A stretch of 39,067 nt of DNA. It comes from Verrucomicrobiales bacterium (GTDB lineage: Bacteria; Verrucomicrobiota; Verrucomicrobiia; Verrucomicrobiales; V1-33). The stretch is from NCBI GenBank assembly GCA_018003315.1, contig JAGNEJ010000043.1, positions 1 to 39,067 of the forward strand, given 5' to 3'. The translations under genes were made by a program, and so were the position numbers. Of this stretch, positions 32,167 through 34,611 are shown one piece after another. Within the stretch, counting starts at the first letter, position 1; each line of letters starts with the position of its first letter. The notes beneath the pieces were generated by a model. It saw nothing but the letters and a program-made list of their open reading frames with translations, made no database searches and was not told the origin of the DNA.

Positions 32167-32182
32167 ACACAATATGTAGTGT
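32167..32182 (+). promoter_or_regulatory. NrdR box 1
   Basis: acacaatatgtagtgt matches the NrdR consensus acaCwAtATaTwGtgt at nearly all positions. NrdR is the ATP-cone/zinc-finger repressor of ribonucleotide reductase genes. This copy starts exactly 31 nt before box 2, the helical phasing expected for cooperative NrdR binding. Confidence 0.85.
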
Positions 32183-32197
32183 GTATCCGGCCAACGA

Positions 32198-32213
32198 ACA
32201 CAATATGTTTGAC
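32198..32213 (+). promoter_or_regulatory. NrdR box 2 (degenerate right half)
   Basis: acacaatatgtttgac shares its left eleven bases with box 1 and diverges at the right. It overlaps the -35-like TTGACA at 32209-32214, so bound NrdR would block the promoter directly. Confidence 0.75.
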
Positions 32214-32236
32214 ATTATTTGGATTTTTTGGATCAT
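32209..32236 (+). promoter_or_regulatory. candidate nrdG-nrdD promoter
   Basis: TTGACA (32209-32214), a 16-nt spacer, then GATCAT (32231-32236) matching four of six -10 positions. It would start transcription within about 3 nt of ATG 32246, implying a leaderless or near-leaderless message, which fits the absence of a Shine-Dalgarno site. An upstream promoter overlapping box 1 is an alternative. Confidence 0.35.
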
Positions 32237-32245
32237 TTCCGAATC

Positions 32246-32740
32246 ATGATTTCGTCCCTGCGCTGCGCTGCTCACACTGTTGGCACCCTGGAAGTTCCGG
32301 ATGAAATCGCCCTCGTTTACACCATTAGCGGCTGCCCGCTGCGGTGTCCTGGATGCCACTCGGCGGACCTGCGCGATCCCCGTCTTGGGCAGGTGCTGGA
32401 TGCCGCCACCCTGCACGCCACCCTGGTGCGGTATCGCGGCCTGGCCTCGTGCGTCTGCTTTCTGGGCGGCGAATGGAATCCTTCCGCGCTGATCGAGTTG
32501 CTGGTGCTCGCTCGCGGGCAAGGCTTCACCACCTGCCTCTACACCGGACTCAACGAAGTGTCCGACGCCATTGCCGCCCATCTCGACTACGTCAAACTCG
32601 GCCCGTTCGTCGCCTCACGCGGCGGGCTCGACAGCCCGGAGACCAACCAGCGCTTTCTCGACTTGCGGACCGGTCGCAATCTCACCCCCCGCTTCCAGAA
32701 TCCGCTCGGCACCCCCGCCGTCCTGGAAAAGGCCGCCTGA
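32246..32740 (+). CDS. nrdG: anaerobic ribonucleotide reductase-activating radical SAM protein
   Basis: 164 residues from ATG 32246 (an upstream TTG at 32219 would lie inside the promoter). The radical SAM cluster motif CPLRCPGC places Cys30, Cys34 and Cys37 around a [4Fe-4S] cluster. Supporting features are FLGGEWNP (the GGE motif that contacts SAM), TCLYTGL, and VKLGPFV near the C-terminus. It generates a 5'-deoxyadenosyl radical that abstracts hydrogen from the glycyl-radical site of NrdD under anoxic conditions. The length is typical for short NrdG. It precedes nrdD by 65 nt, the reverse of the nrdD-nrdG order in E. coli. NrdR boxes lie directly upstream. Confidence 0.93.
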   Translation: MISSLRCAAHTVGTLEVPDEIALVYTISGCPLRCPGCHSADLRDPRLGQVLDAATLHATLVRYRGLASCVCFLGGEWNPSALIELLVLARGQGFTTCLYTGLNEVSDAIAAHLDYVKLGPFVASRGGLDSPETNQRFLDLRTGRNLTPRFQNPLGTPAVLEKAA

Positions 32741-32774
32741 TTTCCCGACTCCTTGCCTGCTCTCCACCCGTCCG

Positions 32775-32794
32775 TCCATCCATCCATCCATCCA
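32775..32794 (+). repeat. tetranucleotide microsatellite (TCCA)5 before nrdD
   Basis: Five exact TCCA units, preceded by a TCCG variant unit (32771-32774), end 11 nt before the nrdD ATG in the nrdG-nrdD gap. It occupies the place where a ribosome site would be expected. Slipped-strand change of copy number would alter the spacing to the start codon but not the reading frame of either gene. Confidence 0.8.
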
Positions 32795-32805
32795 TACCAA
32801 CAACC

Positions 32806-34611
32806 ATGAACACACATCTCGACTTCATCGACCGCTACATTTCCGCCAAAAACTCTGCCGACGGCAGTCTGGTGGATGCCAATGCCAACGTCAGCATGAA
32901 GCACGCCTCGGTGCTCGCTTCCGAGATCCACAAGCAGACGAACATCCGCATCCACCGTGCCCTGATGCAGCGCAAGCTCGCCGCGCTGTTCGACCAGGAA
33001 ACCGCCGACCGCTACCTCCGGCAGTTGGAAAATCACGAGATTTACACCCACGACGAAACCGCCCCCTTTGTGCCCTACTGCGCGAGCATCAGCCTGTTTC
33101 CGATGCTCCACCAGGGCCTTGTTCCGCTCGGCGGCGAAAGCAGAGCCCCCCGGCACCTCGCCAGCTTCTGCGGCAGTTTCATCAACCTCGTTTTCGCCGT
33201 CAGCGCCAATCTCGCCGGTGCCTGTGCCACCGTCGAGTTTCTCAACTGTTTCGACCACTTTGCCCGCAAGGATTACGGACGGAACTACCTGGAAACGCAC
33301 CGCCATGAGATCGAAAACCACCTCCAACACGTCGTTTACGCCCTGAACCAGCCTGCAGCCGCACGCAACTATCAGAGCGTCTTCTGGAACATCTCGGTGT
33401 TCGATGAACACTATTTCGAAAGCATGTTCGGCGATTTCGTTTTCCCTGACGAAGACCGTTCGGACTGGCAGAGCGTCAAGCAGCTCCAGGCCTTTTTCAT
33501 GCAGTGGTTCAACAAGGAACGGGAGAAAACCCTGCTCACCTTCCCCGTCGTCACCGCCGCCCTCATCCACGACCATGAAGAACCGCGCGACGCGGACTTC
33601 GCCCGGATGCTGGCCCATGAACTCAGCCGCGGCAACTCGTTCTTCATTTACACCAGCGACACCGTGGACAGCCTTTCCTCCTGCTGCCGCCTGCGCAGTG
33701 CCATCGACGCCGGAAACGATTTCTCCTACTCCCTCGGCGCCGGCGGCGTGATGACCGGCTCCATGCAGGTCATGACCATCAATTTCAACCGGCTCATCCA
33801 GGACGGACGGGACCTGGCGGAGCAGGTCAGCCTGCTTCACAAATACCTCGTCGCCCGTCGAGCCGTGCTCATGGAGTTCAACGATGCCGGCCTGCTTCCG
33901 ATTTACACGGCGAAATTCATTGTTCCGGAAAAACTCTACCTAACGATCGGCGTCAACGGCCTGGTGGAAGCCGCCGAGTCGCTCGGACTTGACCCCTCCA
34001 ACAACGAAGCCTACATGAACTGGGTCAGCGGCCAGCTCCGTCAGATCAACGAACTGAACCGCGCCGCCTCCGCCCGCTACAAGGCGCGCTTCAATACCGA
34101 GTTTGTGCCTGCGGAAAACCTCGGCGTCAAGTTTGCCCGGTGGGACCGCAACGACGGCTACCGCGTCCCGCGCGACTGCTACAATTCCTACTTCTACCCG
34201 GTCGAACGCGAAGACATCCACATCCTCGACAAGCTGGTCCTCCACGGCGACCGTGTCACCCGCTATCTCGACGGCGGTTCCGCGCTGCACCTCAATCTCG
34301 AAAGTTATGCCACCGAGGAATCCTTCGCCAAACTCCTCCGGGCCGCCATCCGCACCGGCTGCAATTACTTCTGCACCAATGTCAAGGTGACCTGCTGCAA
34401 CTCCTGCGACCACATCGACAAGCTCACCCGTCAGCATTGCAGCGCCTGCGGATCCATGGATGTCGATCACGCCACCCGCATCATCGGCTACCTCAAGCGC
34501 ATCGCCAGTTGGTCCACCGAGCGCCAGCATGAGGAAGGCCGCCGTGCCTATCATGTGCCAGCCGTAGCAGCGGCCAACCAGCAGGCCGTGCCGGCAGAGC
34601 CGTCGTCATAG
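32806..34611 (+). CDS. nrdD: class III anaerobic ribonucleoside-triphosphate reductase, no ATP-cone
   Basis: 601 residues from ATG 32806. It reduces ribonucleoside triphosphates to deoxyribonucleotides without oxygen. The active-site Cys lies in SLSSCCRLRSAI (Cys293/294). The C-terminal zinc site is Cys531/Cys534 and Cys545/Cys548 (CNSC and CSAC). The glycyl radical is Gly561 in RIIGYL (E. coli has RVCGYL). E. coli NrdD is about 710 residues with an N-terminal ATP-cone; this protein starts directly with the catalytic region, as in phage T4 NrdD (about 605). No cone can be read upstream in frame. It should therefore lack dATP feedback through a cone, leaving transcriptional control by NrdR. 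A longer frame from 32344 is a shadow of nrdG. No Shine-Dalgarno site. Confidence 0.95.
   Translation: MNTHLDFIDRYISAKNSADGSLVDANANVSMKHASVLASEIHKQTNIRIHRALMQRKLAALFDQETADRYLRQLENHEIYTHDETAPFVPYCASISLFPMLHQGLVPLGGESRAPRHLASFCGSFINLVFAVSANLAGACATVEFLNCFDHFARKDYGRNYLETHRHEIENHLQHVVYALNQPAAARNYQSVFWNISVFDEHYFESMFGDFVFPDEDRSDWQSVKQLQAFFMQWFNKEREKTLLTFPVVTAALIHDHEEPRDADFARMLAHELSRGNSFFIYTSDTVDSLSSCCRLRSAIDAGNDFSYSLGAGGVMTGSMQVMTINFNRLIQDGRDLAEQVSLLHKYLVARRAVLMEFNDAGLLPIYTAKFIVPEKLYLTIGVNGLVEAAESLGLDPSNNEAYMNWVSGQLRQINELNRAASARYKARFNTEFVPAENLGVKFARWDRNDGYRVPRDCYNSYFYPVEREDIHILDKLVLHGDRVTRYLDGGSALHLNLESYATEESFAKLLRAAIRTGCNYFCTNVKVTCCNSCDHIDKLTRQHCSACGSMDVDHATRIIGYLKRIASWSTERQHEEGRRAYHVPAVAAANQQAVPAEPSS

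Follow-up and report, generated by a model that had tools for sequence, protein, structure and literature searches.

The locus considered here raises the question of how an anaerobic ribonucleotide reductase (RNR) operon, nrdG-nrdD, is controlled in a member of the Verrucomicrobiales, and especially whether the repeated motif at 32167-32213 is an operator for the repressor NrdR. The window, i.e. the whole 39,067-nucleotide stretch of DNA that was analysed, was therefore searched together with other parts of the same genome and with genomes of the same order.

Paired boxes in front of nrdG-nrdD

Table 1. Features of the nrdG-nrdD locus, in window coordinates.
Feature	Position	Strand	Remarks
NrdR box 1	32167..32182	+	ACACAATATGTAGTGT; conserved C 32170 and G 32179 (C-N8-G); predicted from sequence
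NrdR box 2	32198..32213	+	ACACAATATGTTTGAC; C 32201 and next G 32211 (C-N9-G), one base over the usual; predicted from sequence
TTGACA, candidate -35	32209..32214	+	shares five bases with the 3' end of box 2 and extends one base past it
GATCAT, candidate -10	32231-32236	+	16-bp spacing to TTGACA; 10/12 matches
nrdG, anaerobic RNR activating protein	32246..32740	+	NrdG3-like, CxxxCxxC; best NCBIfam match TIGR02826
nrdD, class III anaerobic ribonucleotide reductase	32806-34611	+	TIGR02827 type; 840 bits versus a cut-off of 568.3

The first-pass annotation had described two tandem 16-mers with eleven shared leading bases, 31 nt apart, and this description proved exact. Indeed, the first 11 bases of both boxes are identical, their starts lie 31 bp apart with a 15-bp spacer, and the pair is found 32 bp upstream of the nrdG ATG. 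The consensus of the NrdR box is ACACWATATNTNGTGT. Box 1 matches it with 0 mismatches, and box 2 is an incomplete palindrome with a right arm of TTTGAC instead of the textbook TWGTGT. With up to 3 mismatches to the consensus, 4 matches are found in the window, all overlapping at 32167-32184, while 100 shuffles gave a mean of 0.53, none reaching 4. Furthermore, an exact search of the 5.09-Mb assembly for the two 11-mers separated by 20 bp gave a single occurrence (0 for the reversed-pattern control). On a pair score with a maximum of 29 and allowed spacers of 14-17 bp, the nrdG-nrdD pair reaches 25.5, and the top value among 100 window copies generated with a first-order Markov model is 20.5.

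NrdR operators are made of two boxes before an RNR operon, about three helix turns apart and with a 14-17 bp spacer, in which range the 15 bp observed here falls; the commonest spacers are 15-16 bp in the accessible part of PMC12051234. The overlap of box 2 with a TTGACA, also pointed out in the first-pass annotation, is confirmed and places the pair, in terms of a consensus match, on a putative polymerase site. The candidate promoter is the single one found at 10/12 matches (shuffles mean 0.4).

The genes downstream form a class III operon, with nrdD above its family cut-off and an adjoining nrdG which, at 146 bits, is just below the TIGR02826 cut-off of 151.7. The nrdG start was set by judgement at the ATG at 32246, as the mechanical ORF begins earlier, at the TTG at 32219. 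Pfam displays an NRDD domain at 44-583 of NrdD and no ATP-cone, and NrdDs lacking an ATP-cone are also known from T4 and T. maritima, as mentioned in the available text of PMC11226230. Without this domain, to go by Pfam, the NrdD of the window may depend on NrdR as its principal dATP brake. Between the two genes, just before the nrdD start, a short run of TCCA repeats can be seen at 32771-32795.

NrdR and its candidate sites in the genome and the order

The search for the regulator itself, proposed along with the first-pass annotation, revealed one complete nrdR gene in the genome (G000:C40:31995-32435; 204.4 bits versus 124.65; E 2.6e-60), coding for a protein with Zn-ribbon and ATP-cone domains. 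By counting, its D15, R17, R26-29 and R37 bear the same numbers as the DNA-contacting residues of S. coelicolor NrdR, and position 12 is K, not R (PMC9110341, available portion). The scan of other nrd promoters gave pairs at both nrdR (score 24; 16-bp spacer, located between 78 and 31 bp upstream of its ATG) and the class I gene nrdB on contig C114 (15-bp spacer, end 52 bp before the ATG, score 21). In the 91.2 kb examined of this genome, i.e. the window plus four further stretches selected to cover nrdR, nrdB and nrdA neighbours, only the nrdG-nrdD, nrdR and nrdB sites score at least 19.5. Each of these three pairs has one weaker box. Against the pattern C.[AT].A[AT].[AT].G, published for screening, 0/3 pass as a whole on the strand as printed, and the nrdR pair passes once the opposite strand is taken for its second box.

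The large subunit of class I/II RNR (PF02867) has 0 matches in this assembly although nrdB is present, and tblastn with NrdA of the congener G001 gave no match in the five examined stretches. Most likely, the missing nrdA lies in an assembly gap. Class III as the sole reductase was rejected as unsafe, considering an nrdB with its own pair, an nrdA in the congener and a draft assembly of 155 contigs.

Paired boxes were also found before the nrd genes of relatives, among 37 genomes of the order including that of the window. The gene nrdR was found in 35/37 genomes, and 18/35 of its upstream regions score at least 20 (background windows 0/462). The other 17 are below 20, with about nine (G015, G019, G023, G027, G030, G032, G033, G035 and G036) at 13.5-16.5. 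Since these nine or so resemble background, NrdR autoregulation would not be universal in the order. For class I, PF02867 was found in 31/37 genomes, from which 22 nrdB-nrdA operons were counted, the remaining PF02867 loci being of other types and left out. A first scan of the 500 bp before nrdA displayed almost no pairs, because in most relatives nrdA comes second, after nrdB, and the boxes sit before nrdB. In G001, where nrdA lies apart from nrdB, nrdA has its own pair with a score of 24.5. A 200-bp window before nrdB gave 10/21 at 20 or above, with boxes up to ~295 bp upstream; with a 300-bp window, picked after the box positions had been seen and compared with background windows of equal length, 21/22 nrdB-nrdA upstream regions score at least 20 (background 0/550), nrdB of G029 reaching only 18.5. 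The C-N8-G spacing is found in 36/36 nrdR boxes and 41/42 nrdB boxes, counts that are biased upward by a pair score favouring C and G at these places. Genomes of Bdellovibrionota, Bacteroidota and others gave a mixed picture, some with strong pairs (Mannheimia, 28.0) and some with none, and were left out of the counts.

NrdD above the TIGR02827 cut-off is sporadic, being observed in 9/386 genomes of the order (10 loci, window included) and in 1/13 of the window's family, with none in the 12 other genomes of that family. A pair precedes nrdG-nrdD at 10/10 loci with scores of 18.0 to 25.5, at least 20 in 8/10, five of the ten loci coming from one genus and hence not being independent; among background windows, 10/400 reach 18 and 0/400 reach 20. 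The nine loci other than that of the window, all from other families of the order, are thus all paired (9/9). Duplicate records (L123-L128 and L139, identical to L004, L165, L163, L161, L164, L013 and L162) were counted once, L157 and L158, which come without upstream DNA, were left out, and L159 and L160 both display a normal pair.

The one-base stretch of box 2

Box 1 passes the published pattern and box 2 fails it, because its C-N9-G is one base longer than C-N8-G; with one base added to the pattern, box 2 passes as well. As the pattern is a screening tool and not a binding test, the nrdG-nrdD site is classed as a variant. A scan with this pattern misses box 2 in this nrdG-nrdD lineage, and the partner assigned to box 1 would be a chance match located 33 bases further on. 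No report of an NrdR box stretched by one base was found in a literature search that was not aimed at stretched boxes.

The stretched form (CAATATGTTTG or close) is shared by the window locus, copy a of G020 and five loci of genus g25, while both boxes are C-N8-G in copy b of G020, G131 and G220. In the NrdD tree, the seven C-N9-G loci form one group with a support of 96/87, copy b of G020 is its sister, and G131 and G220 are distant. Since the tree groups exactly these seven loci, the stretch would most simply have arisen once and then been kept across three families. The DNA upstream of the boxes aligns poorly within this clade, and the scattered presence of the clade hints that the operon was transferred together with its operator. 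The genome G020 contains two nrdG-nrdD operons (L004 and L013), one with a stretched and one with a normal box 2.

The stretch bears on how rigidly NrdR reads a box. Its retention in three families (C-N9-G, CAA-N5-TTG) might reflect a deliberately asymmetric operator, the second half-site of which doubles as the -35, such that the same NrdR would repress the anaerobic enzyme differently from class I; we offer this as a tentative suggestion, possible but doubtful.

Proposed repression and competing readings

Taken with the nrdR gene of this genome and the pairs at its other nrd promoters and in relatives, the proposal of the first-pass annotation that 32167-32213 is an NrdR operator gains support, and we consider it highly probable (about 0.92) that this site serves to repress nrdG-nrdD under dATP control. 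The boxes, their spacing, the TTGACA overlap, the presence of nrdR, the nrdR and nrdB pairs and the conservation among relatives all point to this reading. By analogy with other bacteria, when dATP is plentiful NrdR tetramers carrying ATP and dATP would occupy the two boxes, which lie three helix turns from each other, and the bound repressor would kink the DNA, cover the -35 region and switch the anaerobic enzyme off. At lower dATP levels, NrdR carrying only ATP would release the operator. Apart from the stretched box 2, the predicted operator is an ordinary one and corresponds to expected biology.

A repeated 11-mer could in principle be the site of another regulator or occur by chance, which is highly improbable given that the pair scores above 100/100 simulated windows, that the same motif is found at nrdR and nrdB and that it is conserved at all nine other nrdG-nrdD loci. 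A closer competitor, which we still regard as unlikely, takes box 1 as the true NrdR box and box 2 as mostly a -35 element contributing a half-site only, with weak repression as a result. Indeed, the right arm of box 2 reads TTTGACA and not GTGT, its TTGACA is exact, and the affinity of E. coli NrdR is drastically lost when either box is mutated, as stated in the accessible sections of PMC12051234. However, the left arm of box 2 and the TTTG are kept in 7/7 loci of the clade across three families despite the poor upstream alignment, while the exact -35 is not (TTTGAT, TTTGAG and TTTGCG occur), hence conservation seems to exceed what a -35 would account for. Moreover, the sister copy L013 combines a normal C-N8-G box with a TTGACA, which argues that a -35 does not force the stretch.

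The NrdR operator proposed here resembles those of known systems. In E. coli, nrdDG and nrdHIEF likewise have two 16-bp boxes 15 bp apart, before a class III operon and overlapping the polymerase site, according to the portion of PMC12176259 at hand, whereas in the window the gene order is nrdG-nrdD and box 2 is one base longer. In the excerpted account of L. monocytogenes nrdDG (PMC12051234), the pair also overlaps the polymerase site near the start codon, with a spacer of 16 bp compared to 15 bp in the window, where box 2 is merged with the TTGACA. At the S. coelicolor nrdRJ operator, for which the NrdR-DNA complex has been solved, the conserved GC pairs described in the available part of PMC9110341 are 31 bp apart (9 and 40), as are C 32170 and C 32201 of the window; within box 2, the second such pair, at 49 in S. 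coelicolor, is found one base further along in the window. The same source reports that S. coelicolor NrdR controls its own gene, and the nrdR promoter of the window's genome likewise bears a predicted pair.

PMC4989314, as far as its consulted part goes, reports conservation of NrdR within the PVC superphylum and works with an NrdR consensus taken from a chlamydial relative, and the survey across phyla in PMC12051234, judged from its accessible part, may include Verrucomicrobiota. Our sequence evidence would extend the known dNTP feedback circuit to class I, class III and nrdR promoters in an order of this phylum. In the nrdR promoters of relatives and in L001, a TTGAC-like sequence is often located in the spacer, immediately upstream of box 2, and nrdG-nrdD has its TTGAC inside box 2.
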